Shown piece by piece: positions 2,416 through 23,937 of a stretch of 36,100 bases of DNA (positions are counted from its first letter, which is position 1; every line of letters starts with the position of its first letter). The stretch is taken from the IMG/VR virus record IMGVR_UViG_3300033997_000117, positions 1 through 36,100 of that record. The stretch is one strand, 5' to 3'. Made by a program: the position numbers and the translations under genes. The stretch is from a virus. Under the pieces are notes generated by a model, which was given only the letters and a program-made list of their open reading frames with translations, searched no databases and was not told the origin of the DNA.

Positions 2416-3960
2416 TCAGCTGGCCCTCTGGCCGACCAGGTAGACCCGCAGGCCCTTGGCCAGGGCCGTACCCACCTGGTCCACGTCGATGCTGATCTCG
2501 TCTCCCTTGGCCAATACGTTGCCACCCGGCACCAGCACCGGTGGGATGGCCGCCGTCATGGTGGTGCGCTCGTTGTTGTCAAAGGTCAGCTTGGTCGACA
2601 GGATGCTGGTGCCGTTTCGGTTCACATCAACCGTGAGTACGACGCCGGCAGCCTGGGCGACGGCGAGCGTGGCATAGATGCCGCCGTTGGCCACGGTATC
2701 CAGCAACAGCCCGTAGGGCAGGATCAGGCTGTCCTTCCCGGTCCCGGTCCCGATGTTGGTTCCGATCAGCACAGATCGATCGACCAGGTCGAAGCACTGA
2801 AGATCGGGGGCGGACGCAATCCGCGACAGGTCACCTGCAGCCACCCACGCGTCGGCGTCAGGCGCAAGGCAGGTGCCGCTGATGATGCAGCCCTGTGCAC
2901 GGGTCTTGGCCTGGAAGCTCGGCGGCACGGTGAGCGGTCCACCGCCCTCGACGGCGAGCGTCACCTGGCCGGCGCCCACCTGCAATACCGAGAAGAACTG
3001 GCCTTCCTTCCAGTCGGCGCTGCCGCCGGTGTTCGCCCGCACGGTGAGCGTGATCGGCGTGGCCGAGTTGGCCAAGATCAGGGTGTTGTGCATGTCCCCG
3101 GCCAGCGTGGTGTTGCCGGTGACGCTGACGATCCGCGGCGCAACCGTGTAGACCGGCGGTTCACCGATCCACGGCCTGGCGTAGCCGCGCAGGGTCGTGA
3201 AGCCACGCACGCCATCGCCGAGGGGCGGGTTAAAGCGGATGGCCGGCGGCGCCCCTTCGGTGCCTGGCACGATCAGGAACTCACCTACCCCATCCGCGTC
3301 GACCGGGCGGGACACCTTGTAGTTGCCGGCACCCGCAGTGATCTCGACTGCGGTGTCGTAGAACAGCGGACTCAGAACATCGGCGCCAGCCAAGGGGAAG
3401 TCGGTCACTTCGCCATCGCCAGTGAACGTCCAGAGCTTCGGGGACACGCCGACGGTGCCGCCACCGTTCTGGATCTGCTCGATCAGCACGAGCGCGGTGC
3501 GCTTGTTCAGGGCGTCGGCATCGGCAATGGCGTCGCCAACGCGCACGATGCGGTTGTTCTTCGCATCCCACACCATGTCGCCGCTGCCATCGGGATCCGG
3601 TACCAGCAGCATCGCGTCCGCCGCGATCTGCTGGATCATCATCACCGGCGCATCCTGGTCCTCGTTGAGGGTCTGCGCCAGCAGGTCGCCAAGGTTCTCG
3701 TAGTTGATCACCCGGACCAGTGGCATATTCCGGTGCAGCACCACCTTGGCATTTGCTGCAGGCGGGGCCACGAACACGACATTGCCGCCGGCTGGATTGC
3801 CCACACCCTCGACGGTGTAGTGCGTGCCCAGGGTTCGGACAAGGCCGTTAACGGTGACCCGAATGTGGGCCGCCTCGAGGATGCGGAAGCTGTAGGGGAA
3901 CACCGTCGTCACGCCGTTGGCGATCGAGGTGTTGGGGCCGGTGTAGGCGGGGACGGTCAT
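2416..3960 (-). CDS. Tail fibre protein with T7-type N-terminal anchor domain
   Basis: The 514-residue protein opens with a phage T7 tail-fibre N-terminal domain: residues ~5-115, including YTGPNTSIANGVTTVFPYSF, a beta-rich first half and a helix with NYENLGDLLAQTLNEDQ. In T7 this domain attaches the fibre trimer to the tail tube. The rest (about 190-514) is beta-rich, with no recognised enzyme signature. The gene follows Rz1 after ~60 nt, and a copy of the repeated 20-bp late motif lies just upstream, so it probably begins its own transcription unit together with the next gene. The C-terminal part could be a short spike rather than a fibre shaft. Confidence 0.85.
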   Translation of the reverse strand: MTVPAYTGPNTSIANGVTTVFPYSFRILEAAHIRVTVNGLVRTLGTHYTVEGVGNPAGGNVVFVAPPAANAKVVLHRNMPLVRVINYENLGDLLAQTLNEDQDAPVMMIQQIAADAMLLVPDPDGSGDMVWDAKNNRIVRVGDAIADADALNKRTALVLIEQIQNGGGTVGVSPKLWTFTGDGEVTDFPLAGADVLSPLFYDTAVEITAGAGNYKVSRPVDADGVGEFLIVPGTEGAPPAIRFNPPLGDGVRGFTTLRGYARPWIGEPPVYTVAPRIVSVTGNTTLAGDMHNTLILANSATPITLTVRANTGGSADWKEGQFFSVLQVGAGQVTLAVEGGGPLTVPPSFQAKTRAQGCIISGTCLAPDADAWVAAGDLSRIASAPDLQCFDLVDRSVLIGTNIGTGTGKDSLILPYGLLLDTVANGGIYATLAVAQAAGVVLTVDVNRNGTSILSTKLTFDNNERTTMTAAIPPVLVPGGNVLAKGDEISIDVDQVGTALAKGLRVYLVGQRAS

Positions 3961-4008
3961 GGCGGCACCTGCGGGAGACTGCAGCAGATGGTCGGCCCGC
4001 GCCCCCTT

Positions 4009-4028
4009 CGGGTTCCCGACTATTTCCC
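4009..4028 (-). promoter_or_regulatory. Repeated late motif, copy D (upstream of tail fibre genes)
   Basis: On the minus strand this reads GGGAAATAGTCGGGAACCCG, one mismatch from copy A. Its TAG is the stop codon of the Rz1 gene, and it lies 49 bp upstream of the tail-fibre start. Conservation across coding and non-coding contexts argues for a DNA or RNA signal. Proposed role: late promoter or activator site for the tail-fibre unit. Confidence 0.6.
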
Positions 4029-4277
4029 GCGGTGCTGGTCCAGGCAGTCCGCGGTATGGGCGCGCTTGTTCTCGCTGTCCTCATAGGCGCCGACGGCGCC
4101 CACGTAGGCCGCAGCCCACTTCAGCCAGTCACGGCCCGTCGGCGGTGCCGGCGGTCGCTGGGCAATCGCTCGTTCGCTGCACCCGGCAGGAGGCACGTAT
4201 GGCTCGGTCGTGCGCCTCCCGAGCAATGCGCAGGACGTCAGCAGCAGCGGCAGGATCAGAATCGGAAGAAGTCGCAT
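4020..4277 (-). CDS. Rz1: Rz1-like outer-membrane spanin lipoprotein
   Basis: The 85-residue product has a hydrophobic signal (MRLLPILILPLLLTSC) ending in a lipobox with Cys16, followed by a proline-containing mature region. It starts inside the Rz gene in another frame and runs past its end, the usual Rz/Rz1 embedded-overlap arrangement. Rz1 sits in the outer membrane and pairs with Rz to fuse the two membranes in the last step of lysis. It is longer than lambda Rz1, with a C-terminal stretch WLKWAAAYVGAVGAYEDSEN. The last two codons and stop form part of late motif copy D. Confidence 0.87.
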   Translation of the reverse strand: MRLLPILILPLLLTSCALLGRRTTEPYVPPAGCSERAIAQRPPAPPTGRDWLKWAAAYVGAVGAYEDSENKRAHTADCLDQHRGK

Positions 4278-4512
4278 GGATGGCCTCCACCGCCTTGGCG
4301 GTGCGTTCGCGGGTTTCGTGGGCTTCCAGGTCGACGGCGGCGGCGGTGTCGCGGCTGATCTGGACGCTGGTGCTGGTGGCCCGGACCTGGGCCTGCAGTG
4401 CCTTGTTTTCGGCTGAGGTGGCGGCGTCCGTTCGCCCCTTCAGGTAGTAGCAGCCGCCGATCGATAGCAGCACCACCACCATTGCCATGGTGATTGCCTG
4501 TCGCGGGGTCAT
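4129..4512 (-). CDS. Rz: Rz-like inner-membrane spanin
   Basis: The 127-residue protein starts at the ATG overlapping the endolysin stop (TAATG), which implies translational coupling. Residues 7-24 form one transmembrane segment (ITMAMVVVLLSIGGCYYL). A periplasmic, helix-forming, charged domain follows (ENKALQAQVRATSTSVQ, then EAHETRERTAKAVEAI). This is the standard Rz layout. The Rz1 lipoprotein gene begins within its 3' half in another frame. The assignment rests on topology and gene order, since spanins diverge rapidly. Confidence 0.85.
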   Translation of the reverse strand: MTPRQAITMAMVVVLLSIGGCYYLKGRTDAATSAENKALQAQVRATSTSVQISRDTAAAVDLEAHETRERTAKAVEAIHATSSDSDPAAAADVLRIAREAHDRAIRASCRVQRTSDCPATAGTADGP

Positions 4513-5054
4513 TACAGGGTTCCTCTGCAGGTGGCCATTTCCCACTGCCGGCGGTCGATGATGCCGCCGCACTTCGAACGCCACTGCGGCAGGGAGCAGT
4601 CGCGTTTGGCGCCGTCGATGGTGACGAAGCGCCACTTCCAGATCTCATCGCAGGCGGCGGTGCGCTCGCCGGCGTTCAGGCGCTTGGCGGCGGTGCTGGC
4701 ACAGAATCCGTTGGTACCGATGTTGTAGGCAAAGTGGCCCCAGGCCTTCACCTCGTGGAACTCGAATTCCCCCCGGACACAGCGGCCCATGTTGTGCAGC
4801 ATGGCCTGCACATAGTCCTGCTCGAGCTTCCCGCACTCGGCGGGCGTGTAGCGGCGGCCAGGTACCACGGCCGGCCCGGTGATGCCGGCGCACACGGTCC
4901 AGATGCCGCCCGAATCTCGATAGGGGACGTACTTCCGGCCTTCGTGCGCGGAGTTGTCCTGGCCGAGCGCGGCCACCAGCGCCAGGATCAACGCTGCCGG
5001 CGCGGCTGCAAACCCGAACTTGCGGCCCTTGCCGCTCGGTGCCTGGTCAGCCAC
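4512..5054 (-). CDS. SAR endolysin, lysozyme family GH24
   Basis: The chosen GTG start overlaps the holin stop and has AAGGTGG six bases upstream; a TTG at 5072 would add six residues. The product is 180 residues. Residues 13-31 (FGFAAAPAALILALVAALG) form a weakly hydrophobic, Ala/Gly-rich signal-anchor-release segment, so export probably uses the host Sec system. The lysozyme triad is visible as Glu38, Asp47 and Thr53 in the spacing E-8-D-5-T, followed by VCAGIT, as in P21/P1-type endolysins. Eight cysteines (55 and seven further on) allow disulphide control of activity. It degrades peptidoglycan once the membrane is depolarised. Confidence 0.93.
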   Translation of the reverse strand: MADQAPSGKGRKFGFAAAPAALILALVAALGQDNSAHEGRKYVPYRDSGGIWTVCAGITGPAVVPGRRYTPAECGKLEQDYVQAMLHNMGRCVRGEFEFHEVKAWGHFAYNIGTNGFCASTAAKRLNAGERTAACDEIWKWRFVTIDGAKRDCSLPQWRSKCGGIIDRRQWEMATCRGTL

Positions 5055-5295
5055 GGCGGGCCACCTTGGCAATCACCCGCCGGACAGTGGCCCATCGGGC
5101 CATCCACCATGCGCTCCAATCGCCCCAGTTCTTCACCACGACGGTGAACGTCTGCGCCAGGGTGAAGACGATGGTGCAGACCACGGCCACGTCGCTGAGC
5201 GTGTACCCGGGGTTGTACGTGCCGACCGTGACGCCGGCGGCCGGGGCAATCTTCGCCGCGGCCACGGCAAGGTCTTGGGTGATCTGCTCTTTCAT
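5047..5295 (-). CDS. Putative holin
   Basis: This is an 82-residue protein with one clear hydrophobic segment at ~34-53 (SDVAVVCTIVFTLAQTFTVV) and an amphipathic helix before it (QDLAVAAAKIAP). A Trp-rich, strongly basic C-terminus (WWMARWATVRRVIAKVARRG) follows. GGAG lies 6 bases before the ATG. It sits between terminase and endolysin and overlaps the latter, so the lysis cassette is holin, endolysin, Rz, Rz1. With a SAR endolysin, a pinholin would suffice. Whether this forms large or small holes cannot be read from sequence. Confidence 0.82.
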   Translation of the reverse strand: MKEQITQDLAVAAAKIAPAAGVTVGTYNPGYTLSDVAVVCTIVFTLAQTFTVVVKNWGDWSAWWMARWATVRRVIAKVARRG

Positions 5296-5318
5296 CGAGG
5301 CTCCGAACGGGTGGACGT

Positions 5319-6962
5319 TCAGCGCTCGAACACAACCTCATGCTCCCCTGCGCTGTGGCGCCAATCGTCCCGCGCGGTGATGTTCGGATTCCCGACTATC
5401 TGCCCGACTCGTTCAGGTGTATCGGTCAGGGCACCGGCGCCGGCGTCCAGGTAGTCGTCCTTCTGGTTCGGTGCCGTGGGGATCCACTCCTTCATCTGAT
5501 CCCACAGCGGGCCGCGTAGAACGTTCACGTGCGCCCACAGCTGGCCACCCGATTCCAGCAGCGGCTCCCAGGCCTCGAGGATCCGGCGGCTCTTATTGGC
5601 CACCGCCTGCTCCACCGCCACGCCACAGCGTAGCCGGCGCTGCTTCAGCGCGGCCTTCAGCACCGCCGGCGCGAAGGCACCGATGCCATTGGTTTCCACC
5701 ACCACGCGCGGCAGGTTCAGCGCCTCCACCAGATCGCACAGCTGCCACACCTGGCCGCCGGTGATGACCTTCCCGGTGTCGTCGAACTCGGCGACTTCGC
5801 CGGTCAGCTGCTCCATGCGATGCAGGTAGCGCCGGCCGATCAGGTCCTGCAGCACCACCGCGACCGCCGACACGTCGGAATTGAGCTTGCCGCTGGCCGG
5901 ATCCCAGCGCACCGACGCCATGGCGATCTGCACGCTGCCCAGGAACATGGCCGCCGTACCGTTGGCCTTCCTGATGACCGCCTCGACGGCGTAGGGGGTG
6001 ATCCGCTCCGGGTCCAGGCGGATCTCTTCGATGGGCTTGGCTTCGAGCATGTACTGGCTGTCCCATGCGTTGAGGGTGCGCGTTTCCTTCCGGCGCAGCT
6101 CGATCTCGTTCCGGTCGAACCGCTCCGGCCAGGCGCAGCCGCTGTAGAGATCCAGCACCGCGCCTGGCGGCTTGGCGAAAACCACATCACCAGCATCCAC
6201 CCGGTAGTCGGTGCCCTCGACCAGCACGCGGGCGTGCTTGTGGATGCCGACCACCACATACAGCCCATCCTCGGCCGGGGTGAACTTGATTGGGTACCGG
6301 GTCTTGCTGTCGGTCTGTTTGTACCGGGTCGCATGCGCGAACAGGGGAATGATCAGCGTGGACGCACCGGCGGCGATGCGCTCGGGATAGATGCTGTCGT
6401 GGGTGTGCGGGGTGCCGATGAAGGTCTTCTGTGCACCGGGCACCGCAATGTGCGTCGATTCGCTGATGCGCTGGCGCAGCTTCAGCCGGGCCTCTGGCGT
6501 CTCGATGTTGCCGGGCACCTCGATATCGTCGAAGTCCACGGCGTCGGCGCGTGCGCCAGTGGCGTTCGAGGTGACGCCCACCGCGCGCATGCTGGCGTTA
6601 CGGGCATCCCTCGAGCCCAGCACCGAGAAGCGCTTTGCACCCGGCTTGCGGGGCAGCATGCCGATGCACAGCGGGTGGTTGCGCAGCACGTTGATGGTGT
6701 CGGCGGTCAGCATGCCGGCCGTGTCGTTGTCGGCTGACCACACCAGGGAGCGGTGCGCGCGGTTGCGGTACAGGGTCCAGGCCTTGAACACCGCGTAGAT
6801 GGTCGACTTCGCAGCGCCGCGAAACACCATCAGCACGCGCTCTGGATCCGTGCAGGTTTCCAGCCACGTGCAGATGCGCACATGCAGCAGGGGCACGGTC
6901 CACCCCTGGACACGTGCCCACATCATGAAGAACGTCAGGAAAGAGACCTCACGGCTTGCCAT
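5319..6962 (-). CDS. terL: Terminase large subunit, T7 gp19 type
   Basis: The 547-residue packaging motor has a deviant Walker A at ~46-54 (VFRGAAKST, compare FRG-GKS in T7 gp19) and a Walker B near 140-150 (ADAVDFDDIEVP). A C-terminal nuclease domain shows acidic clusters in RWDPASG, VVVETNGIG and KDDYLDAGAGAL. It translocates DNA into the prohead and cuts concatemers. The ATG overlaps the end of the upstream small-subunit gene. Odd: the last ~25 codons contain late motif copy C, in a frame different from that in which the motif gives a stop codon elsewhere. Confidence 0.95.
   Translation of the reverse strand: MASREVSFLTFFMMWARVQGWTVPLLHVRICTWLETCTDPERVLMVFRGAAKSTIYAVFKAWTLYRNRAHRSLVWSADNDTAGMLTADTINVLRNHPLCIGMLPRKPGAKRFSVLGSRDARNASMRAVGVTSNATGARADAVDFDDIEVPGNIETPEARLKLRQRISESTHIAVPGAQKTFIGTPHTHDSIYPERIAAGASTLIIPLFAHATRYKQTDSKTRYPIKFTPAEDGLYVVVGIHKHARVLVEGTDYRVDAGDVVFAKPPGAVLDLYSGCAWPERFDRNEIELRRKETRTLNAWDSQYMLEAKPIEEIRLDPERITPYAVEAVIRKANGTAAMFLGSVQIAMASVRWDPASGKLNSDVSAVAVVLQDLIGRRYLHRMEQLTGEVAEFDDTGKVITGGQVWQLCDLVEALNLPRVVVETNGIGAFAPAVLKAALKQRRLRCGVAVEQAVANKSRRILEAWEPLLESGGQLWAHVNVLRGPLWDQMKEWIPTAPNQKDDYLDAGAGALTDTPERVGQIVGNPNITARDDWRHSAGEHEVVFER
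5385..5404 (-). promoter_or_regulatory. Repeated late motif, copy C (upstream of the lysis cassette)
   Basis: The minus strand reads GGCAGATAGTCGGGAATCCG, two changes from copy A. It lies inside the 3' end of the terminase gene and 90 bp upstream of the holin start. A second TCGGG lies 12 bp before the central one, giving a direct half-repeat. Proposed role: late promoter or activator site for the lysis genes. Confidence 0.58.
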
Positions 6963-7344
6963 GGATCTTCGCCACTTCGTCGGCGCGGCGCTGCTGCTTC
7001 AGCACCTGGTCGAGCAGCCGGCTGCCTTCCTTCTCCGCCGCTGCGACCTCCGCTTCCAGGCCGCCGTCGCCCTCCTGATCTTCGGTAGCACCCACCTCAC
7101 CGGCACCACCGTTGCCGCTGCTGTCACGCTGGATCATCGAGACCAGCGAGCCAACGCGCAGCAGCAGCCCACCAGTGGCCGCCGCATTGCGCTTGCACCA
7201 GTAGCGGTCGCCGCGCTCGGCCTTGTCCATCTCGCTGGGCGCCTTGCCGGCGCCGGTCCACGTGGCCGGGTCGGCTTCCTCGATGAAGGCCTCGGCCAGC
7301 TTCTCGCTCAGGGCCTGCAGCCGCAGGTACTGGTCTTCGCGCAT
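6949..7344 (-). CDS. Putative terminase small subunit
   Basis: The 131-residue product starts at an ATG two bases after the stop of the preceding virion gene and overlaps the terminase large gene. It is acidic and largely helical, with a central KAERGDRYWCKRNAAATGGLLLRVGSL and a charged C-terminal helix (EAEVAAAEKEGSRLLDQVLKQQRRADEVAKIH). No sequence motif proves the function. The call rests on its position directly before terL and on a size and helical make-up like T7 gp18-type DNA-recognition subunits, though it is longer than gp18. Confidence 0.68.
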   Translation of the reverse strand: MREDQYLRLQALSEKLAEAFIEEADPATWTGAGKAPSEMDKAERGDRYWCKRNAAATGGLLLRVGSLVSMIQRDSSGNGGAGEVGATEDQEGDGGLEAEVAAAEKEGSRLLDQVLKQQRRADEVAKIHGKP

Positions 7345-7345
7345 G

Positions 7346-9796
7346 TCACTCTCCCGCTGCAGCTGCGACGTTGGGCGCACGCTCTGGCACGGCCTCGCCC
7401 GGTTCCCACCAGTATTGCTGGTTCCAGTCCTTCTGCGCGCGCTTGCGCATGCGTCGCAGATACCCCGGACTCAGCTGCTCCTGCAGGTCATGGAACACCA
7501 TGTGGTCGGTGGCGCCGCGGAGATACCACAGGTTGATGAAGGGGGTGTTCCCCTTTGCGAACCGCAGCGCCTCGGCGCCCAGGTCGTCCAGCTTGTCGTC
7601 GGCCTTGTTTTCGTCGGCGATCGCCCAGCCAGCGCCCTTGCGCGCGATGCTGAAACCATCCATCGCGGTGCCGAACACCGGGCCGAGCATCGACGTCCAG
7701 TTGGCCTGGCCGCCGCGGCTGTCGCCGCCCATGCCGGTGTAGAGAATGTCGCCGAAGATGCCCAGCCCGCCGCCCTGCGCAGCCGCCGCCAGCCAGAATT
7801 TCCCGGTCGTCATGTCGCGCGGATCTTTGCCGTCGCGCAGATCCTTCAGCTGCAGCGCCACCGCACCGAACAGCTGCAGGCTCGTCAGCATCGCCGCGCT
7901 GTAGGCGACCTTACCCTGTGTGGTCGGGATGTTGCGCAGCCTACGCAGGTGCTTGTCGACGATCGCCAGCGGGAACGCCTTAAACAGCATCAGGGATCGC
8001 AGCGCTTCACCGCCCAGCGTACCGGCCTTGGTTCCCTGCTGCAGGCTCGCGCGGGTGGTCAGGTCCGGCGCCAGGATCGCAGTGCGGGCCTCACTGTCCA
8101 GGTAGCCCAGCAGCCGAGCGGTGGCCCGGTTCAGATCCGCCTCGCTGGCGTCGACGGCGCGGATACCGTCCTTGGTCAGCATGCCGTCCTGTGCCGGCGC
8201 CTGCTGCCAGATCTTCCAATCGGCCTCAGTTACGCCGGCTGAAGCCATGCGACGGAGTGAGCCCTCATCGAGATCAGCCCATGCTGTCTGCCGATTCCGT
8301 TCAAGAACGCGCGACAGAATCAGCGCGTACCCGCGGCGCAGGCTGTTGGTCCAGCCTTCAACGAGGGTCAGCTTCATGGTGCTGTTGGCCAGTTTCGCCG
8401 ACCACCCCTGCGCGAGGTTGTCCTGATGCCAGCGGGTCATTTCCCCGGCGATCTCGTCCATGCCGATGGCCAGGTCGTGCGCCATGTCCCGCTTTCCCTT
8501 CCCGAACCCGGAGAACAGCGACTTCATCGCGCCCCCCGTCGGCACACCGGCGGAACGGGCGACCAGCACCTGCAGCGGGGCGTCGGTGATTGAGGACAGC
8601 ATCACGCTCTGCAGCTTCGCCGCCACGGTGAAGTTGCGCACGCCCTGGAAGAACTGCGCCATCGCTGGGCTTACTGGCTGTGCGGTCACGCCCGTGAGCG
8701 TGTCCCAGGTCATGTCGAGGGTCGCCAGCTCGTGCCAGGCCGCGCGGGCGCCGGTCACGTTGTCGGCCTTCTCGGCAGTGTCCTTCAGCAGACGATAGGT
8801 GCTGTTCGGGTTGGCGCCGAACTCTTCCATCAAGCCGATGTTCTTGGCCATGCCGCCGACGTGGCCCAGGATCGCGTCCATCATCGAGCCGCGGCCGAAG
8901 TCGGCCAGGTAATCCAGATGGCTGTCGGCGTCCTTGAAGTGCAGCACGCGGTGCGCGTCGTCGAACCGGCTGGCGCGCGATCCCTGTCCGACAGCGCCAG
9001 GCACGCGCTTGTTGCGGCCCTCGGTGGCAATCGTGTCGTATGCCTTGCGCAGCAGGTCCAGCACCTCGGCATCGCCCATGGCCTCGCCGTCCTCGCGCAG
9101 GTACTGCTCGCGGCGCAGGCGCGGGAACACGTAGTCGACCCACGCATCCTTGCCGGCCTTGGCGATGCGACCCACGTCGTGCGGCTGCGGCAGGTAGCCG
9201 TAGTCGAGCCGGCCAATGTCGGTACCGGCAGCGTTCGAGCGTAGGCGCATGTCCTCGAGCGCGGCGATGTACGTGGCCGCGGCCTTGGCCATCTTCGGGT
9301 CGCTGGTGTCACCGTCGACCACCGCGCGGGCGAAGGCTCGAACCGAATCCGGGTCGTGCATCAGGCCCAGGAACTTCGGTTCCACTGCCTGCACAGCATC
9401 GACCAGCTCCGACAGGTACTCGTTGCGCACGCCGGAAACGTAGTCGTCTGCCTGGCGCATACGCTCGAACAGCGCGGAATGCTGCGGGTTCTTCGCTCCC
9501 TGGGCGGCCAGCTGCGCCGCACGCGCGGCCTGACGCTCAGTTTCCCGAACCTGCGCCGTCAGCCGCGATGCCCGGCGGAACGCGGCCTTCTCAGCATCTG
9601 CGATGGCCTCAGCCTGCGCGGCCTCCGCTGCACGCTGCAGGCGCTGCTCGTGCGACAACGTGCGCCACTGGTCATCGGTGCGCGCCAGCTGGCGCATGTG
9701 CCTGGCCAGATCCGTCTCGATCCGGGCCACTTCGGTGGTGGTGGGCTCGCGGCCAATGGCGGCGGCCACTTCTTGAACGCATGCAGGCTGCATCAT
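7346..9796 (-). CDS. Large inner-core (ejection) virion protein
   Basis: The 816-residue protein starts at one of two adjacent ATGs; the second (9793) has the better spacing to GGAGG. Residues ~30-110 form a long charged coiled coil (EQRLQRAAEAAQAEAIADAEKAAFRRAS), followed by mixed helical regions. Gly/Ala-rich, hydrophobic stretches appear late (~655-690, SAAMLTSLQLFGAVALQL and FWLAAAAQGGGLGIFG). It stands last in a run of four virion proteins, in the place occupied by the largest internal core protein of T7-like phages. Such proteins leave the head with the DNA and help form the trans-envelope channel. No enzymatic motif seen. Confidence 0.75.
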   Translation of the reverse strand: MMQPACVQEVAAAIGREPTTTEVARIETDLARHMRQLARTDDQWRTLSHEQRLQRAAEAAQAEAIADAEKAAFRRASRLTAQVRETERQAARAAQLAAQGAKNPQHSALFERMRQADDYVSGVRNEYLSELVDAVQAVEPKFLGLMHDPDSVRAFARAVVDGDTSDPKMAKAAATYIAALEDMRLRSNAAGTDIGRLDYGYLPQPHDVGRIAKAGKDAWVDYVFPRLRREQYLREDGEAMGDAEVLDLLRKAYDTIATEGRNKRVPGAVGQGSRASRFDDAHRVLHFKDADSHLDYLADFGRGSMMDAILGHVGGMAKNIGLMEEFGANPNSTYRLLKDTAEKADNVTGARAAWHELATLDMTWDTLTGVTAQPVSPAMAQFFQGVRNFTVAAKLQSVMLSSITDAPLQVLVARSAGVPTGGAMKSLFSGFGKGKRDMAHDLAIGMDEIAGEMTRWHQDNLAQGWSAKLANSTMKLTLVEGWTNSLRRGYALILSRVLERNRQTAWADLDEGSLRRMASAGVTEADWKIWQQAPAQDGMLTKDGIRAVDASEADLNRATARLLGYLDSEARTAILAPDLTTRASLQQGTKAGTLGGEALRSLMLFKAFPLAIVDKHLRRLRNIPTTQGKVAYSAAMLTSLQLFGAVALQLKDLRDGKDPRDMTTGKFWLAAAAQGGGLGIFGDILYTGMGGDSRGGQANWTSMLGPVFGTAMDGFSIARKGAGWAIADENKADDKLDDLGAEALRFAKGNTPFINLWYLRGATDHMVFHDLQEQLSPGYLRRMRKRAQKDWNQQYWWEPGEAVPERAPNVAAAAGE

Positions 9797-12399
9797 CCCC
9801 TCCGCAGGAAGCAGTTGACGGCCGCCTGGAAGGCGGTGGCATCGGTGGTTGCTCGGGCCAGATCGGCCTCGATATCGGCGAACTCGTCAGCGACAGTGCG
9901 GTGCACAGCGCCGCCATCGGCATCGGCGCCGACTACGATCGAGGCATCAGGGTTTTGCGCCGCCAGCTGTCGGGCGGCATCGAGAGGCGTTTCGGGAGCG
10001 GGGGTTACTTCGCCGCGGCTGCCGGCTTCGCGGCCAGGCGAGCCTTGCGCTCGGCCTTGGCTTGGGCCATTTCCAGCCCGATCTCCCGCCAGCGCTGCTG
10101 GTGCGCCGCGTCCAGGGCCGCTGAATCCTCGGTAGAGGTCTTCTGCGAGTCCGCCGGTACGGGCTTGGTCGAGGGCGTCTTGGAGGCTGCCATGGAGACT
10201 ATCTTCCTCCACTCGGGGGAGGCTTGCAAGATCGACAACTTTCTGCTTGCCCTTGCCCTGGCTGTTGTCGATGGCGGTCACCTTCACGCGGGGGTCGTCC
10301 GCATAGCGAGCCGCGATCGCTTCGATGGTCGGCCGGACGCCGGAATGAGTCCTGGCATGCTCCCGCAGGGGCACGGTACGGCCAGAGCCGAAGCGCTCGG
10401 CCTGGCGCTGAGCGCGGGGGATAGCCCCGTTGACCAGGGCGTCTACCGGATCCCGGTACACATAGACGATATCCACATCACGGCCGGCGGCCAGGGCCTG
10501 CTCGATCTTGTCCACCGCTGAGGACAGGGTGTTCATGTTGGTGTCGTAGATGATCTCCGGCTTCCCGATGGAGTCGCCCAACGCCCTCATGCCTGTGGTT
10601 TTGCCAGCCCCGGTGCCGCCGGCGGTGAACATCACAGTCGAATCGAAGCCATCTGGGGTGGGCTGGGCTAGTTTCTGCTCGTAGAGCAGCTTGATGGTGT
10701 CGCTGGCCGCCTCGTGCACGTCGGCGCTGCGAGTGCGGTCGGCCAGGTATTCCGGCGACAGCTCGCGGGCGGTGTCAGTGTTCAGCACCCGGCCGCCGTC
10801 GGACTCTTCCAGAGCGGCGTATTCGCGGAGCAGCTTGTCCGGGTTGCTCACCAGGCGCTCGCGCAGGGCCTGCCCGGCCGGGTTGGTGTCGACCGGCCCA
10901 CCGTCAGGCAGCACGCCGGCGCGCTTGGCGCGCTGGTTCCAATTGGCGATAGCCTCGTCCTTGGTCAGGCCCCGCAGGTAGGGATTGGCCTCGAGCTGCC
11001 CACGGCTCAGGATCCGCTCCATCGGGGTGGCACCGTCGGAGCGGGCGAAGCGCCGGCCACCGGCCAGGCCGAAGTGATGCGCGGCGTACAGGGTGTAGGC
11101 GTCGACCGGCAGCCCCTCCGCCTGCAATCCTGCGGTGTTCTCGGCATCGAGCGCCGCCACCATTTCCGTAGAGCGCGCCGGATCCGTTCGCATCGCCAGC
11201 AGCTGCGCGTCGTCCAACCCCTGCGCCCATTCCGGCTTGGTCTTGGCCACCATTCGGCGCCAGGTGCCGGCGGTGAACTGGTCGATGCCCAGCGCGGTGG
11301 ATTCGGGGTTGCGCGCGTTGGCCTGGCCACCGGATTCAAGCGCCCGACGGAATGCCGAGTAGCCGGCCAACGACGTCGCGGGAGCATCGGCGGTATCGCC
11401 CAGAGGCAACAGGAAGTCCGACGGCCGGATGGTGTCGACCACGTTCACCGGCTCGCCGCGCGCCAGCTGCTCGAGGGCATCCTGCAGCGCGTCCTGGCCA
11501 CGGATGGCCGCGCCCTCGTCTGCCACCAGCGGGTCGGTGGCAGTGCGCTGGAAGCGGTCGGCGTTGCGCGCGGTCAGCAGCGCATCGCGCTGATCGAGCG
11601 GGACGCGCGGGGCCATGGCATGGGCGAGCGCACCGAATGCCACACCGGTCAGCAGGTCGACCGTGCGCGCCTCCGCATCGAGCGGATCGAAGGCTTTGGC
11701 CTGTTCGTCGTTGCCGCCGGCCTTCAGCGCCGCGTACTGCGCGCCGGACATGCCCGCTCCCAGCAGCAGGTTGCCGGCCGCACCGGTGGCCAGCCGCTGG
11801 GTGAGCGTGGATCCGAACGCTGCCGGCAGCTTGAACCCTGCCAGCGTGCCCACCGAACCGGCCAGGCCAACCGCCTGTGCAGTGCCTGCGCCGACGCCCT
11901 GCTTGACCAGTGACGCCGGCCGCTCGAGGCCTTCATTCGCGGCCAGCAGTGCTGGATTGCCGCCAGCCGCTGCCAGCGGCAGCACGATCTCGGCCAAGCC
12001 ACCCAACACTCGCCCAGCGGTGCCGGTTTCGGTGGGGTCCGGCGTCCATGCGTCGACTGCGCGCTGTCCGATCCCCTCCACCACGTCGGCGAAATAGGCA
12101 TCCTGGCCTGCCGTGGTGGCGCCGCGCGCAGGGTTGGCCACGCCCTGCGCCTGCAGGAAGTCGGCCACGTCGTCGGTCATGAAGGATGAAAGGTAGTCGT
12201 CACGTGCCACCACCGGCACCGCGCCGGCAGTCAGCACAGCGGTGCCGGTTCGGGCACCGCCGCGCATGGTGCCGCTGAAAACGGACGAACCCAGGCCTTC
12301 GAAGAACCCGGGCTTCATCTTCGACAGGTCCAGGGGATTGGCCACCGCCTGTTCGTCGAGCTGCTTGCGGCCCTGCTCGTCCAGATCGAAAACGCTCAT
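9793..12399 (-). CDS. Ejection protein with transglycosylase-like and zeta-toxin-like kinase domains
   Basis: The 868-residue protein has, in order: an Ala/Gly-rich helical N-terminus (~1-260); a lytic-transglycosylase-like region at ~345-450 with candidate catalytic Glu355 (ALESGG) and GIDQFTAGTW; and a P-loop domain at ~586-715. The P-loop domain has Walker A GGTGAGKTT (594-602), then IIYDTNMN, a strand VDIVYVYRDP, and the sequence GSGRTVPLREHARTH. This layout fits zeta toxin/UDP-GlcNAc kinase-type enzymes. A low-complexity linker (~745-800) and a C-terminal segment ending CFLRRG follow. It overlaps both neighbouring virion genes by ATGA, so it should be packaged. The peptidoglycan domain would aid DNA entry; delivery of a kinase into the cell is inference. 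Confidence 0.83.
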   Translation of the reverse strand: MSVFDLDEQGRKQLDEQAVANPLDLSKMKPGFFEGLGSSVFSGTMRGGARTGTAVLTAGAVPVVARDDYLSSFMTDDVADFLQAQGVANPARGATTAGQDAYFADVVEGIGQRAVDAWTPDPTETGTAGRVLGGLAEIVLPLAAAGGNPALLAANEGLERPASLVKQGVGAGTAQAVGLAGSVGTLAGFKLPAAFGSTLTQRLATGAAGNLLLGAGMSGAQYAALKAGGNDEQAKAFDPLDAEARTVDLLTGVAFGALAHAMAPRVPLDQRDALLTARNADRFQRTATDPLVADEGAAIRGQDALQDALEQLARGEPVNVVDTIRPSDFLLPLGDTADAPATSLAGYSAFRRALESGGQANARNPESTALGIDQFTAGTWRRMVAKTKPEWAQGLDDAQLLAMRTDPARSTEMVAALDAENTAGLQAEGLPVDAYTLYAAHHFGLAGGRRFARSDGATPMERILSRGQLEANPYLRGLTKDEAIANWNQRAKRAGVLPDGGPVDTNPAGQALRERLVSNPDKLLREYAALEESDGGRVLNTDTARELSPEYLADRTRSADVHEAASDTIKLLYEQKLAQPTPDGFDSTVMFTAGGTGAGKTTGMRALGDSIGKPEIIYDTNMNTLSSAVDKIEQALAAGRDVDIVYVYRDPVDALVNGAIPRAQRQAERFGSGRTVPLREHARTHSGVRPTIEAIAARYADDPRVKVTAIDNSQGKGKQKVVDLASLPRVEEDSLHGSLQDALDQARTGGLAEDLYRGFSGPGRGAPAALAGDRAGNGPSQGRAQGSPGREAGSRGEVTPAPETPLDAARQLAAQNPDASIVVGADADGGAVHRTVADEFADIEADLARATTDATAFQAAVNCFLRRG
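10005..10193 (-). CDS. Candidate nested gene inside the zeta-like protein gene
   Basis: A 62-codon frame from ATG to TAA lies inside the larger gene, in another frame. GGAGGAAG precedes the ATG, at somewhat long spacing. The product is hydrophilic, opening MAASKTPSTKPVPADSQ and ending in a basic Ala/Lys helix (EMAQAKAERKARLAAK). By my hand count about 85% of its third codon positions are G or C, against roughly 55% for the host gene's frame over the same bases. In a GC-rich genome that favours this frame as the one under codon selection here. No family recognised. An antitoxin to the adjoining kinase is an attractive but unproven idea. Confidence 0.42.
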   Translation of the reverse strand: MAASKTPSTKPVPADSQKTSTEDSAALDAAHQQRWREIGLEMAQAKAERKARLAAKPAAAAK

Positions 12400-17612: not shown

Positions 17613-17614
17613 GG

Positions 17615-18205: not shown

Positions 18206-18219
18206 GGTGCGCGGCCCTC

Positions 18220-18248
18220 AAAAAAAGCCGGGCGCACTCGGCGCCCGG
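18220..18248 (-). terminator. Rho-independent terminator after the capsid unit
   Basis: In the minus strand the perfect 8-bp arms CCGGGCGC and GCGCCCGG flank a 5-nt loop and are followed by C and seven T. It separates the capsid/decoration pair from the tail genes. Its position matches the leaky T-phi terminator that follows the capsid gene in T7. Confidence 0.88.
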
Positions 18249-18285
18249 ATGGTTTCCCTGTTGCTATCCGGGTTGGGAACCTGGA

Positions 18286-18804: not shown

Positions 18805-18868
18805 GGTGGCTACCTCGTATGCGAATGGATTGGGTGGAGCAGCGGCCGAAACCGCTGCGCCGAATGGA

Positions 18869-19732
18869 TCAGGCTTCCTGGCAGGCGATTTCGACGACCT
18901 TCACTTCCTCGGAGCGCACAGCACCGATGGCCTGCTTGCCGTACACGCGGGTGTTGAAGCCCTTGCCCGGGTCCTTGCCGACTTCGGTGGTGGTGTCCTT
19001 GCCGATGCCGAGGGTGAGGCCGGACTTCGCCCAGGCCAGGCCGTAACGGGTGGTGCCGACCTTGTCCAGGCGCTCGGTCGGGATCCAGTTGAAGCCCATC
19101 CACTTACCCTTCAGCGAGCCGTTCTGCAGCATCTGCACGGCCAGGAAGTCGGCGGAGGTCAGGGTGGTGTCGCTCAGCACGTCCTGCAGCATCTGAGCGG
19201 TGTAGGCCATGTACAGCTCTTCGCCGTTCTCTTCGTCCGCCTCGTTACGGCGGAACATGCCCTTCGCCTGGATGATCTTGGCCTTGCTCAGGCCAACACC
19301 ACCGACGGCGATCTTCTGCGAGGCCGGCAGGATGACGTTGCCGGCGGTGGCGCGCGAGTTGCCACGGGCAGCGGCAATGATCACGTCGTCCTTCGAACGG
19401 TTGAAGGCCGACACCATGGCCTTGACGTAGTCGCTGGTCGGGTCGACCAACATGCGGACCTTGTCGAGGTCGTCGATCATGTCGCCGTCTTCCCAGTCGT
19501 ACAGGTCGACGAAACGGGTACCGTGCTGCTGGTCGTTGATCGGGGTGTCACCGTGGCGGACCAGGCGACGCTGGGCGGTGCGCTGGCCCAGGAAGTTGAT
19601 GGACTTGGACATGCCGACGATGCCCGACTCGATGGTCACACAGGACTCGAGGCGGGACGGCATCTGCTGGGCCACGTGGCGGAAGTTGTCCGCGAACTGC
19701 TGCACGAAGGCTTCGGTAATCTGCTGGCTCAT
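18869..19732 (-). CDS. Major capsid protein
   Basis: The 287-residue protein follows the scaffold gene. It shows features of podoviral HK97-fold capsid proteins: an N-terminal helix (ITEAFVQQFADNFRHVAQQ), a region RRLVRHGDTPINDQQHGTRFVDLYDWEDGDMID, and a C-terminal domain with GLAWAKSGLTLGIG. It starts at the ATG with GGAG 8 bases upstream. It is preceded by a ~150-nt leader, a copy of the late motif and a terminator insulating it from the scaffold gene, which is the arrangement expected for a gene needing very high expression. Confidence 0.9.
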   Translation of the reverse strand: MSQQITEAFVQQFADNFRHVAQQMPSRLESCVTIESGIVGMSKSINFLGQRTAQRRLVRHGDTPINDQQHGTRFVDLYDWEDGDMIDDLDKVRMLVDPTSDYVKAMVSAFNRSKDDVIIAAARGNSRATAGNVILPASQKIAVGGVGLSKAKIIQAKGMFRRNEADEENGEELYMAYTAQMLQDVLSDTTLTSADFLAVQMLQNGSLKGKWMGFNWIPTERLDKVGTTRYGLAWAKSGLTLGIGKDTTTEVGKDPGKGFNTRVYGKQAIGAVRSEEVKVVEIACQEA

Positions 19733-19881
19733 ATAGGGCTCCGAAGGGTTTGAAGGGGGCTCGTGCCTGCCCGGGTGTCCCTCTCGGGGCCGTGCGGTTC
19801 GCGTGGCAACGTCGCGGGCTTACGCGGGTATCCGGGTGCCACCCCGGGCCGATGGCTGGCAGGATGGCTGTGCGGCCGATT

Positions 19882-19901
19882 CGGAATCCCGACTATTTGC
19901 A
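19882..19901 (-). promoter_or_regulatory. Repeated late motif, copy B (upstream of the capsid gene)
   Basis: The minus strand reads TGCAAATAGTCGGGATTCCG. It lies in a non-coding gap, seven bases downstream of the T tract of a terminator and ~150 bp upstream of the capsid start. This terminator-then-motif-then-capsid order is the best single argument that the motif starts transcription. The region between it and the capsid gene (19733-19881) has no gene and contains GC-rich short inverted repeats. Confidence 0.65.
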
Positions 19902-19908
19902 CGGGCAC

Positions 19909-19934
19909 AAAAAAGCCCCGCGCTGGGCGGGGCT
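19909..19934 (-). terminator. Rho-independent terminator after the scaffold gene
   Basis: In the minus strand the arms AGCCCCGC and GCGGGGCT surround a 5-nt loop and are followed by a run of six T. It lies 20 nt past the scaffold stop and just before late motif copy B. Confidence 0.9.
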
Positions 19935-19953
19935 CTTTCGGATCGGGTTGCGA

Positions 19954-20844
19954 TCAGCGAACGGCTGATGCGCCGAGCTGGCGCTGCTGGGTGCCGTAGC
20001 GCTTCTGGTACAGCTCGCCGACCTGTCGCACCACGCTGGCGTGCTTCGGGTTGCTCTTGTCCATGTAGGCCGGGTCGGCCTTCAGGGTGTCGACCTGCTC
20101 CTGCCAGTCGGCTGCGGCCACCGGATCCGAACTGATCGGCTTGTCCTCGCCCATTTCCTTGCCGATGCTGGCCATCAGCGCCAGGAAGTCGGGGTCGTTG
20201 CCGAACTTCTGCATCACGTTTTCGTAGTTGCCGGGCTGGCCGGCAGGAGCTGCGAAGCCCTGGGCGGCACGGGCGGCGCTCGCCAGGCCCGCCTTCATGG
20301 CTGCGTCATCCTTCCACACTGCCGACAGGGTCTGCCGGGCCTCATCGGCGCCCAGCTGCAGGTTGGCCTCGAACAGCTTCGGTGCCATCTGCAGGTACTC
20401 GCCGATGACCACGTTCATCTGCTCGTTGCTGATGCCGGCTGCGTGCGCCTTCGCGGCAAATTCCTTGTACATCGGGTCGCCGATGAAGTCCTGCAGGTCG
20501 ACGCCTTCAACCAGGGCCTTTCCGTCGGCATCGGTGGGCACGGTCAGCTGGTAGCCGTCGGCGCTGTCCGGCACGGTGCCAGTGGCGCCGCTGCCAAGCT
20601 TCGCCTCGAGGGACTTGTAACCCTCACCCAGCTTCCGGGCCGATGCCTGGAAGTCGATCTCGTCCTTGCCCTCGACCTTTACACGGTACTTCTCCGGCAG
20701 CCACGCGGCTTCCTCTCCCGCGCCTTGTTGGAGTAGCGAGGCAGCGTCTCCCGCGCCCGCCGCGCCGGCAGCTGCTGCGGCTGCTGCATCCGCACCAACA
20801 GCACCTGCGGCCGAGGTGTCTTCATGGCTGTGACTCATGTTCAT
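19954..20844 (-). CDS. Capsid scaffolding protein
   Basis: The 296-residue acidic protein has a low-complexity Ala/Gly N-terminus (~1-45) and a conserved-type segment WLPEKYRVKVEGKDEIDFQASARKL. Helical, charged regions follow. The C-terminus ends in a mixed-charge helix with KRYGTQQRQLG, as expected for capsid contact. It lies directly upstream of the capsid gene, as in T7 (gp9/gp10). GGAG precedes the chosen ATG by 9 bases; a second ATG two codons later is possible. It guides procapsid assembly and is lost on maturation. Confidence 0.87.
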   Translation of the reverse strand: MNMSHSHEDTSAAGAVGADAAAAAAAGAAGAGDAASLLQQGAGEEAAWLPEKYRVKVEGKDEIDFQASARKLGEGYKSLEAKLGSGATGTVPDSADGYQLTVPTDADGKALVEGVDLQDFIGDPMYKEFAAKAHAAGISNEQMNVVIGEYLQMAPKLFEANLQLGADEARQTLSAVWKDDAAMKAGLASAARAAQGFAAPAGQPGNYENVMQKFGNDPDFLALMASIGKEMGEDKPISSDPVAAADWQEQVDTLKADPAYMDKSNPKHASVVRQVGELYQKRYGTQQRQLGASAVR

Positions 20845-21070
20845 CGGTGTTTACTCCGTTCGCTCGGTTGATTTGGGTAACGATGTGATCCACCACGGAG
20901 CGCGCGCCCTCGCGGTGGTAGGTGGACAGGACGGCGTCGATGCCGCCCTGCATGACGGCGCCCTTGTGGAAGCGCCGCACCAGGTCCTCGAGGATCAGCA
21001 CGCCCTCGGCGTGGTTCTCGAACACCCGGGCGTACATTTCCGGCGTCACTCGCTCGCGCTGGTCGGTCAT
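20822..21070 (-). CDS. Bbp19-like small structural protein
   Basis: The 82-residue protein resembles the Bbp19 family of podoviruses (named for Bordetella phage BPP-1): a single helical domain with EGVLILEDLVRRF, a short linker, and HREGARSVVDHIVTQI. It overlaps the portal stop (ATGA) and the scaffold start, so the three genes are translationally coupled. Members are encoded between portal and scaffold or capsid. Exact role unknown. Confidence 0.75.
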   Translation of the reverse strand: MTDQRERVTPEMYARVFENHAEGVLILEDLVRRFHKGAVMQGGIDAVLSTYHREGARSVVDHIVTQINRANGVNTDEHESQP

Positions 21071-22665
21071 GCGGCGGCCTGCTCGCCCATGGCCTGCTGT
21101 GCTGCACCCATGGCCATCTGCTCAGCGGCAGCTGCCTGTCGCTGCTGGTCGGCGGCCTGCTGCTTGGCCTGCTGGACTTCCAGCACCTCGTCCTGGCTGC
21201 GCAGCACACCCTGCGGGACGCCCAAGCCTTCAGCGGTGATGCGGATGGCCTCGGCCGAATCCAGCTGGTCGAACACGCTGCTATCGCCGGTGGCCTGCGC
21301 CAGAGCGCCCATGTTGAGCACCAGGCGCTCGATTGCGGTCACTTCCTCGAGGCGCTGCGCGCGGGCCAGCGGCGAGACGTACTTCACCGTGTACTCGCGG
21401 TCTGCCAGGGACTCAGGCGGCTGGCCCAGCACGCCGGCGCGGGCGGCGATGCCGAAGCAGCGGGTAACCATCGGCCGCAGGTACTCGGCCTGCAGGCGGC
21501 CGTAGATCGGGCCCAGCAGCTGGCGGATCAGCTCCACCCGAACGTGCACCTCGGTGGCCGTCATGGCCGGGCCGTCCTGCGGCTGCAGCTGGTCGGCCAT
21601 GAACACCTTGCGGATGGCGGCCTGCAGGTGGCTCACCAGGTACTCGCCCATTTCGAAGTCGCTGCCGTTCTTCAGCTCCTTCATCGAGTCGACGGAGTTG
21701 GCGACGATGATCTTGCGGGCGCCGACCTTGACCGTGCGGGGATTCAGGACACCGTCGTCCTCAGCAATCCACATGCCGGCGATGTTGATATCCGCCGCGG
21801 CCAGCGTCATCGCCTTCAGCTCGTTGAGCATGCGCATGTCGGGCAGCGCTTCGAAGGCCGGGCCGACGCCGTAGGCGCTGTTCGGCAGGCGCATCCAGCG
21901 CGGCACCACACACGGGAACTCGTGGTAGCCGGACTCGCGCACCAGGTGCTTCGTGTTGGCCTCGACCACACAGGAAGCGAAGGGCAGGTTCCTGGCCAGG
22001 CGGGCGCCGACCACGTGCATGGGCCGCGGCTCGATGCAGGTGATGAAGCTCACCATTTCCAGCGGCTTGTCCTTCACCAGCTTCTGCAGCGGATCGCTCA
22101 GGTTCTCGATGCCGAACTGCGCGGCCGCAGCCTCGGCCGAAAGCCTGTGTTCCCGGTAGATGGTGTCGACCAGGCCATCGGCGCGGGTGCTGGCCACGTA
22201 GCAGGTGGCGATCGGCCACTGCTGGAAGCTGAAACCACCGTCGGGCGCCTCGTCGATGTACAGGACGAACCAGCCAGCGGCGACGGCATCCAGACAGCTC
22301 TCGTAGCCCTCAGCGTCGAAGTTGGATTGATGGATGTTGGTCCAGACCGTGTCGGCTGCCTCGCCGAGCCAGGCCTTCTCATCGTCGCTGGCCTGCTCCA
22401 CCGAAAGCTCGAACCAACGGGAGTTGGCCGGGGTCAGGCCGGACATGATCCCCGAAGCCAGGGTGCGGCAGCCGTCGGTGCCGGTGCTGTCCAGGATCTC
22501 GCCCTGCTTGCGCATGCCCTGCTGGGCGTCCAGCTGCTGGCCATCGAAGCCATCAGCGCGCAGCGGGTACGTCAGTTCGAAGCAGTGCCGCCAAACCTGC
22601 TCATGGGGCTGCCGGCGCGACTTCAGCTCGCCGAGACGCTTGTGGATGCGGGCACCGGCGCTCAT
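21067..22665 (-). CDS. Portal (head-tail connector) protein, T7 gp8 type
   Basis: The 532-residue protein begins with the connector-family helix (RIHKRLGELKSRRQPHEQVWRHCFELTYP). It continues with STGTDGCRTLASGIMSGLTPANSRWFELS, then YGVGPAFEALPDMRMLNELK and, near the end, TATEVHVRVELIRQLLGPIYGRLQAEYL. The last ~50 residues are Gln/Ala-rich (QQAKQQAADQQRQAAAAEQM). Twelve copies would form the dodecameric channel at the capsid vertex that binds terminase and tail. Its ATG overlaps the stop of the preceding small gene. Confidence 0.94.
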   Translation of the reverse strand: MSAGARIHKRLGELKSRRQPHEQVWRHCFELTYPLRADGFDGQQLDAQQGMRKQGEILDSTGTDGCRTLASGIMSGLTPANSRWFELSVEQASDDEKAWLGEAADTVWTNIHQSNFDAEGYESCLDAVAAGWFVLYIDEAPDGGFSFQQWPIATCYVASTRADGLVDTIYREHRLSAEAAAAQFGIENLSDPLQKLVKDKPLEMVSFITCIEPRPMHVVGARLARNLPFASCVVEANTKHLVRESGYHEFPCVVPRWMRLPNSAYGVGPAFEALPDMRMLNELKAMTLAAADINIAGMWIAEDDGVLNPRTVKVGARKIIVANSVDSMKELKNGSDFEMGEYLVSHLQAAIRKVFMADQLQPQDGPAMTATEVHVRVELIRQLLGPIYGRLQAEYLRPMVTRCFGIAARAGVLGQPPESLADREYTVKYVSPLARAQRLEEVTAIERLVLNMGALAQATGDSSVFDQLDSAEAIRITAEGLGVPQGVLRSQDEVLEVQQAKQQAADQQRQAAAAEQMAMGAAQQAMGEQAAA

Positions 22666-22895
22666 CAGGCACCGCCCAGGGTGGACTTGCCCACAGCGCT
22701 GGCCAGCAGCGAGCGGCCACCGCCGCCACCGACCAAGCCCTGAGCCCCCAGCGTCAGCAGCGACGACTCACGGCGGCGGCGGCGGCGCGATGCCAGCTCG
22801 AGGTTGGATTGGGTCGTGGCCTGCGCCTCAGCGGCGCGCTGGTCGGCCACGGGGTCGCGTTCAACGACCTTGGGTGCCTTGGGTTTCCCACACAT
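22665..22895 (-). CDS. Small head-region protein with Met-Cys start
   Basis: The 76-residue protein begins MCGKPKAPKVVERDP and carries a run of six Arg followed by ESSLLTLGAQGLVGGGG. AGGAGG lies 8 bases before the ATG. The next upstream gene product also begins Met-Cys and ends in a comparable basic-then-SSxxxxLGxxG tail, so the two may be related. T7 gp7.3 and gp6.7, minor ejected virion proteins near the connector gene, have a loosely similar basic-plus-Gly/Ser end. That is suggestive only. Confidence 0.7.
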   Translation of the reverse strand: MCGKPKAPKVVERDPVADQRAAEAQATTQSNLELASRRRRRRESSLLTLGAQGLVGGGGGRSLLASAVGKSTLGGA

Positions 22896-22899
22896 GTGG

Positions 22900-23211
22900 T
22901 CAGCCTCCTGCAGAGCCCAGCAGGCTGACGGCGAAGGAACTACGCCGCTTCAGTCGCTGGTTGAGGGTGGATTCAGTGGACTGCGCGGCCAGGCGGCGGG
23001 CATCGGCCAGGGCATTCGGCAGGACGTTCTTGGCGTCGTCCTGCGCCTTGCGGTCGGCAGCAGCCTGGGCGGCGACCTTCGCTCGTTCCTTGCGGATATC
23101 TCCCGTCGGGTCGCCGATGGCCGTCTTCGTGACGCCGAGCGGGTCCGCCCACTTGGCGTTCTTGCCGGTCAACAGCCCGGCCGGGTCCATGATCTTGGCC
23201 TTGCTGCACAT
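22900..23211 (-). CDS. Small head-region protein, possible paralogue of its neighbour
   Basis: The 103-residue protein begins MCSKAKIMDPAGLLTGKNAKW. A charged helix follows (RKERAKVAAQAAADRKAQDDAKN), and the C-terminus is LKRRSSFAVSLLGSAGG. The N-terminal MC(G/S)K and the basic/Ser/Gly tail recall the following gene. There are no membrane segments. It probably is a minor virion protein. It sits between the first late gene and the portal with only a few bases on either side. Confidence 0.7.
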   Translation of the reverse strand: MCSKAKIMDPAGLLTGKNAKWADPLGVTKTAIGDPTGDIRKERAKVAAQAAADRKAQDDAKNVLPNALADARRLAAQSTESTLNQRLKRRSSFAVSLLGSAGG

Positions 23212-23214
23212 GGC

Positions 23215-23856
23215 TCAGGCCTTCGGCTGCGGCTCGGGGACGACCCAGCCCGCGTCAGTCAGCACTGCCTGGCCGGTTGTGCGCGGCGCATTCACTTCCG
23301 CTTTCGGCAGATCTGCAACCGGAATCGGGGGTTGTGCTGCCGCTTCGACCAGATCCACACCCAGCTCGCGCCAGCCACCTACGGCAGCCTCATCGAGCGA
23401 CAGCCCACGGGTAGCGGCCCATTCCTCGATCGCTTCAACGGCTGCGCCAGCTTCTTCGGATGCGCCCAGGTTGATCACCTTGACGCGGGAGGTGAGAAAG
23501 CCGGCGAAGTCGAACAGTGCGCCGGCGATGACCACGCACAGGTCGGCAGGCAGCGGGTCGGCTGGGGCAATCGGGTCAGCAGAGCCCAGCTCGGCACGGC
23601 GCTTGTCCTCGGCCTCGATGGCTTCCAGCACGCCCTTGCGGTTGCTGCCGGCCACTTCGAGGTCGCGCAGGGCGATCAGGTCGCCCGCCACCAGGCTGGG
23701 CAGAGCCTCGGTGATGACCGCAACGGTCTGCTTGGACAGGGTGAGGACAGCGGCCAGGCGCTCGTCCGGCGGCGCGGTGCTGGTGGTGCCGGCGGCTGCG
23801 GCGCTGGTGTCGGCGGTTTCGCCGGGGACTTTCACGGTCAGTTCGGGCGCGGGCAT
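23215..23856 (-). CDS. Acidic hypothetical protein, first gene of the late unit
   Basis: The start chosen has AGGAG 6 bases upstream (CTCCT at 23863-23867 on the plus strand), giving 213 residues; a longer frame upstream would run through a hairpin and late motif copy A. The protein is acidic and Ala-rich, with helical segments (ERLAAVLTLSKQTVAVITEAL) and a central hydrophobic stretch (DLCVVIAGALFDFAGFL), and a Pro-rich C-terminus. I do not recognise a family. As the first gene behind the motif and hairpin, it would lead the head-assembly transcript. Confidence 0.72.
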   Translation of the reverse strand: MPAPELTVKVPGETADTSAAAAGTTSTAPPDERLAAVLTLSKQTVAVITEALPSLVAGDLIALRDLEVAGSNRKGVLEAIEAEDKRRAELGSADPIAPADPLPADLCVVIAGALFDFAGFLTSRVKVINLGASEEAGAAVEAIEEWAATRGLSLDEAAVGGWRELGVDLVEAAAQPPIPVADLPKAEVNAPRTTGQAVLTDAGWVVPEPQPKA

Positions 23857-23878
23857 GTGCTGCTCCTGTGGGCTGCAT

Positions 23879-23910
23879 GGGTGGCGAACAGCCCGGAGTG
23901 TTCGCCACCC
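23879..23910 (-). promoter_or_regulatory. 12-bp hairpin in the leader of the first late transcript
   Basis: A perfect 12-bp inverted repeat, arms GGGTGGCGAACA and TGTTCGCCACCC, encloses an 8-nt loop. It has no T tract, so it is not a normal terminator. It lies just after late motif copy A and 12 nt before the AGGAG of the first late gene. A transcript starting at the motif would therefore carry a stable 5' stem-loop. Confidence 0.75.
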
Positions 23911-23917
23911 GCCCATG

Positions 23918-23937
23918 CGGATTCCCGACTATTTCCC
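23918..23937 (-). promoter_or_regulatory. Repeated late motif, copy A (upstream of head genes)
   Basis: The minus strand reads GGGAAATAGTCGGGAATCCG. It covers the end of the HTH gene, whose stop codon is the TAG of the motif, and precedes the first head-module gene. The four copies share the core ATAGTCGGGA exactly. They are all in the same orientation and each precedes a functional block. Confidence 0.62.

Follow-up and report, generated by a model that had tools for sequence, protein, structure and literature searches.

Probable late promoters in the window

Four copies of a repeat in the 36,100-nucleotide stretch analysed here (the window, covering positions 1 to 36,100 of IMG/VR virus record IMGVR_UViG_3300033997_000117) are very probably sigma70 late promoters that depend on an activator and together form a single regulon, served by a 78-aa HTH protein of the same phage, as judged from sequence comparison. 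The core of the repeat, ATAGTCGGGA on the minus strand, was present exactly four times in the window (in plus-strand reading TCCCGACTAT, at 4014–4023, 5390–5399, 19887–19896 and 23923–23932), while 100 dinucleotide shuffles gave an expectation of zero. The 15-mer ATAGTCGGGAATCCG with up to 3 mismatches recovered only these four sites, against a mean of 0.5 in the shuffles, none of which attained four, and in a profile scan of the window the four copies scored 34.5–37.8 and the runner-up site 4.8. This bore out the original prediction of four copies with a shared exact core and a single orientation, there being no other close site. The same prediction had offered a late-activator site with direct half-repeats as one candidate. 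The activator site has gained strong support, but the half-repeat geometry was wrong: direct CGGGA repeats 11–12 bp apart were unconserved in relatives, whereas an inverted repeat, GTCGG-N4-CCGAC, was conserved and makes up the architecture of the box. The four boxes and the terminator next to one of them are:

23914..23935, minus strand: box D, putative operator of the promoter that opens the late genes (portal block); core matches, alignment, profile scan
19909..19933, minus strand: predicted intrinsic terminator, GCCCCGCCCAGCGCGGGGC followed by TTTTTT, immediately preceding box C; sequence
19878..19899, minus strand: box C, putative operator of the major-capsid promoter; core matches, alignment, profile scan, relatives
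5381..5402, minus strand: box B, putative operator of the lysis promoter, within the 3' end of terL; core matches, profile scan, relatives
4005..4026, minus strand: box A, putative operator of the tail-fibre promoter, overlapping the stop of an Rz1-like ORF; core matches, profile scan

The positional details predicted for the copies also held. The TAG within ATAGTC is the stop codon of the HTH gene at box D (23929) and of the Rz1-like ORF at box A (4020), one copy (5385–5404) lies inside terL (5319–6962), and the copy at 19882–19901 directly follows a hairpin with a T-run.

Proposed promoter geometry

The copies had been thought to share no sigma70 -10. This was incorrect, since a sigma70-like hexamer (nAnnnT) is located 13 bp beyond the box in all four of them:

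23897..23902, minus strand: -10 hexamer AACACT of promoter D, expected start site near 23889
ATG 23856, minus strand, AGGAG ahead: inferred first gene of the portal block
19861..19866, minus strand: -10 hexamer CATCCT of promoter C, expected start site near 19853; capsid gene start 19732
5364..5369, minus strand: -10 hexamer GACGAT of promoter B, expected start site near 5356; holin start 5295
3988..3993, minus strand: -10 hexamer GACCAT of promoter A, expected start site near 3980; tail fibre start 3960

Alignment of 121 non-redundant copies revealed near-invariant A (+31) and T (+35) columns, equivalent to the -11 and -7 positions of sigma70 promoters. The nAnnnT pattern stood in exactly this register in 109 of the 121 copies (best unrelated offset only 18), the exceptions being mostly 1-bp shifts. 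The -10 is weak, with the T at -12 absent in most copies, and no -35 was found at any standard spacing in the 121 copies, where its position reads GGAANC and not TTGACA. Because the -10 register is fixed, the centre of the box can be placed approximately 33 bp above the expected start site, at the usual place of a -35. The combination of a fixed-register -10 with an absent -35 makes activator-dependent sigma70 late promoters the most likely identity of these sites, rather than promoters of a single-subunit polymerase.

The HTH protein and the proposed mechanism

The window belongs to a temperate podovirus with Stenotrophomonas relatives. It has genes for a CI-like repressor, a Cro/YdaS-like protein, an O-like initiator, DnaB, NinB and a RuvC-like resolvase, followed by the HTH gene, after which come a T7-like portal, capsid, tail tubes and internal virion proteins; further genes are those for lysis and, both of T7 type, terL and the tail fibre. 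The HTH gene, placed after the replication/ninB/RuvC-like genes and ahead of the late genes, occupies the slot of lambda's Q:

23929..24165, minus strand: gene of the 78-aa HTH protein, proposed late-gene activator, its TAG stop forming part of box D; PHROG, fold, linkage

Profiles of PHROG 16553 ("transcriptional repressor") and PHROG 17493 (unknown) matched in 40 of 40 members examined. The predicted structure (pLDDT 89.5) consists of four helices plus a tail and is lambda-repressor-like, with C.BclI, SinR, C.AhdI, P22 c2 and lambda repressor as the best structural matches of the model in Foldseek (probability near 1, TM about 0.6). As the E values of these matches were 0.05–0.3, the modelled protein is related to them at the fold level only. 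No Pfam or NCBIfam family fitted the HTH protein of the window (Pfam to E 5), and a sequence search with it against solved structures gave nothing significant. The original prediction had singled out this protein for binding tests, a choice now strongly supported by gene linkage and by the covariation of its recognition helix with the operator, and it is likely to be the activator of the late promoters.

According to the mechanism proposed, the HTH gene closes the early right operon, and its protein would be made after the lytic switch. Its dimer would bind GTCGG-N4-CCGAC, centred about 33 bp above the start site in place of a -35, and recruit the host sigma70 RNA polymerase to the weak -10 lying 13 bp past the box; all four late blocks (portal, capsid, lysis, tail fibre) would thereby start together. 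The box, the -10 register, the orientation and positions of the copies, the linkage to the HTH gene, the covariation and the absence of a T7-type polymerase can be read directly in the sequences, while we infer dimer binding, activation over repression, sigma70 as the factor and the start sites.

The HTH protein might instead repress the late promoters from the same operators, until late infection or in the lysogen. Such a role would agree with the "transcriptional repressor" label of PHROG 16553, with the lambda-repressor-like fold, and with the site covering the -35 region, a classic position for a repressor. Yet a bare promoter with GGAANC in place of a -35 should be near-silent and in need of no repressor, and a gene standing last in the early operon, just ahead of the late genes, suits a Q-like activator. 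Moreover, two loci that are devoid of the HTH gene (L228 and L380) have a near-consensus sigma70 promoter, TTGATA-16-TATTCT, at the place of the box before the capsid gene. Activation is favored and repression considered unlikely, given that the -35 is missing and the -10 is weak, and in view of the gene position and these two loci.

Distribution among related phages

The proposed activator and its boxes were followed in other phages; a motif search in relatives had been suggested along with the original prediction. A scan of IMG/VR with the 15-mer produced 53 stretches, with the related contigs containing 2–5 boxes per phage, all on one strand, and a reversed-pattern control giving 0. IMG/VR relatives with proteins 30–60% identical carry the box ahead of the same blocks. 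The repeats recur at the same gene-block boundaries: between the HTH gene and the portal block, in front of the capsid gene, within the 3' end of terL where lysis or fibre genes follow (19 boxes inside terL among relatives), and between the Rz1-like ORF and the fibre. Some relatives also have one preceding an internal virion protein. An HTH homologue adjoins the boxes in nearly all relatives. In the 84 loci picked by the HTH protein alone, all 175 boxes were located downstream of the HTH gene and co-oriented with it, with 0 reversed; the reversed control in these loci gave 14 matches over both strands. Taken at the level of sequence, considerably more than a hundred related phage sequences show the same arrangement.

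Among the hosts named in the genome set are Pseudomonas, Stenotrophomonas and a Rhodocyclaceae bacterium; in the locus of the latter the HTH gene was present and a clear box was not found. The Yersinia enterocolitica phages YeP4-6, described as inducible podovirus prophages (PMC6548840), were matched via the HTH protein. Boxes were read directly in YeP5, where the copies obey the same -10 rule and one of them is positioned directly after a terminator, before the capsid gene. The box was absent from Piluca and TPWB-05, which are related through their capsid protein and gave no match in the HTH search. Single-copy matches in large unrelated contigs (e.g., G020, G024 and G014) were treated as chance. 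In a subclade of HTH proteins (L118, L142, L145, L177 and L179) the gene context differs and no recognisable box was found; these proteins may act on some other target or exert their regulation from elsewhere.

No box of this kind was found in the group with capsids of 52–58% identity (L229, L230, L233, L235 and L242-L246). Distant HTH homologues occur in several of these loci, and repeated ACAACCGG/ACAACCCG motifs replace the box ahead of their capsid gene.

Covariation of operator and recognition helix

A capsid-selected set of 214 loci, 149 of them with an HTH homologue, was searched for paired palindromes by comparing the stretch after the HTH gene with the stretch before the capsid gene, never using ATAGTC. 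The paired palindrome exceeded the shuffle maximum in 79 of 119 distinct loci, and nAnnnT was in exact register in 150 of 158 paired copies against a background of 2.7%. About one third of the HTH/capsid pairs had no automatically detected paired site; many of them show diverged sites by eye. A T-run just before the capsid copy was found in 23 of 79 cases, as compared to 1.3% of random stretches.

Most of the paired boxes were GTCGG..CCGAC. The variants, i.e., GGCGG..CCGCC, GGTGG..CCACC, GTCAG..CTGAC and GTCGA..TCGAC, with GCCGG..CCGGC seen by eye, had arms changed symmetrically and identically in both copies of a phage with the -10 register kept, and a few box pairs were asymmetric. The mean number of arm mismatches was 0.16 per 10 within a phage versus 1.33 between phages. 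These changes were paralleled in the HTH protein: GTCGG boxes pair with the recognition helix (S/T)TLLG(W/Y), GGCGG or GGTGG boxes, in which G replaces T at the second base of the half-site, with LRDW/MRDW/LRGW, GTCAG with PSIMNY and GTCGA with STLMSY. With the remainder of the HTH protein allowed for, helix distance still predicted operator distance (partial r 0.35, 0 of 500 permutations, with shared ancestry not fully removed); the reverse did not hold (-0.07).

Symmetric arm changes would preserve an RNA hairpin as well, and the box could be read as such an element, GUCGG-GAAN-CCGAC, acting in processing or antitermination like the Q/put sites; GAAA is indeed present in some loops. However, many loops are non-GNRA, a DNA -10 stands in fixed register past the box, specificity follows a DNA-binding helix, and several copies are situated just behind a terminator, where an antitermination site gains little, leaving this explanation a slim chance. 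An even slighter one is given to AATAGT within the box serving as the -10, which would put the start site in GGGA: it has 4 of the 6 TATAAT bases (mean 3.84 matches), but relatives differ at this point (ATTTGGTCGGG, AAGGTCGGG, ACGGGTGGG, TCAGGCGGG) and keep the downstream nAnnnT. Finally, T7-type promoters read by a phage single-subunit RNA polymerase, another candidate of the original prediction, would fit a conserved 20–22 bp box in several copies of single orientation among T7-like virion genes, but have next to no probability considering the conserved -10 at fixed spacing, a box sequence that tracks the HTH recognition helix, and the absence of PF00940 from the window, YeP5 and relatives in a search that detected the T7 polymerase as positive control, in line with the earlier remark that no such polymerase was visible.

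Comparison with known systems and significance

The late promoters proposed here can be compared with several known systems. Mu C is a small phage activator of four late promoters (lys, I, P and mom) that works with the host RNA polymerase (PMC4461284). Similarly, in the phage of the window the predicted activator would be made before late transcription and its sites are at or near -35 of promoters with a non-consensus -10; in contrast to Mu C, the HTH protein is lambda-repressor-like without any Pfam match, Mor/C included, its operator has another sequence and another spacing, and one recurrent copy is found within terL. Lambda CII is a small HTH activator binding around -35 at promoters without a good -35, where it recognizes direct TTGC repeats and drives lysogeny genes. 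The present box differs from the CII site in being an inverted repeat, not TTGC-N6-TTGC, and would drive late lytic genes.

The C proteins of restriction-modification systems are activators of sigma70 promoters, and their binding sites are palindromic boxes near -35 (PMC4824078). Those represented by C.AhdI, C.BclI and C.Esp1396I resemble the HTH protein in size (approximately 80 aa) and lambda-repressor-like fold, and are among its best structural matches. Unlike for the C proteins, no restriction-modification genes are present, the neighbours being phage replication and portal genes, an autogenous tandem box is lacking, with the nearest box downstream of the HTH gene, and the regulon comprises phage late genes. 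Lambda Q acts by antitermination at one late promoter. It has in common with the HTH protein the gene position and the task of switching on late genes, but here there are several late promoters, some directly behind terminators. Judging by these comparisons, the HTH system would work like Mu C, lambda CII and the C proteins without belonging to any of them, its fold being shared with the C proteins.

No description of late regulation in such phages was found in the open-access papers searched, and searching paper text for the motif letters returned unrelated sequences only. It is probable that a widespread clade of temperate T7-like podoviruses lacking an RNA polymerase uses a hitherto undescribed late-transcription system, consisting of a small activator of lambda-repressor fold and fixed-geometry promoters, which has diversified by paired helix and arm changes into a natural set of probably orthogonal pairs. 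This would offer an answer to how the common RNA-polymerase-less T7-like prophages of Pseudomonas, Stenotrophomonas, Yersinia and others switch on their virion genes, propose a function for a protein family whose present labels are "repressor" and "unknown", and make late promoters readable from sequence alone. The helix-operator pairs suggest a stepwise change of specificity with constant promoter geometry and could become orthogonal expression switches.

Capsid leader and other elements

The leader of the capsid mRNA (19733–19853 in the window, minus strand) contains a predicted bulged RNA hairpin in one or two copies before the capsid gene, of the type CAGG-C-CCGC..GCGG-ACAC-CCTG. At least one copy was detected in 134 of 156 distinct leaders and two in 85, compared to 4 of 214 in the reversed control. 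Both stems covaried in 40 aligned relatives (score 0.285 versus 0.084 shuffled, 0 of 500; slid controls ≤0.033), and RNAalifold on the leader alignment called the outer stem alone. Rfam had no match to the leader hairpin, and neither a known RNA family nor a tRNA was found; the hairpin is possibly a new structured leader RNA.

The CI gene is flanked, at 28752–28792 and 29884–29924 of the window, by AT-rich repeats containing TAGCGCCCCT units; they differ from the late box and are probably operators of the lysogeny switch. Furthermore, a probable internal virion protein (9793–12399, minus strand) includes a zeta-toxin-like region (PF06414, E 2e-9) at residues 614–707.
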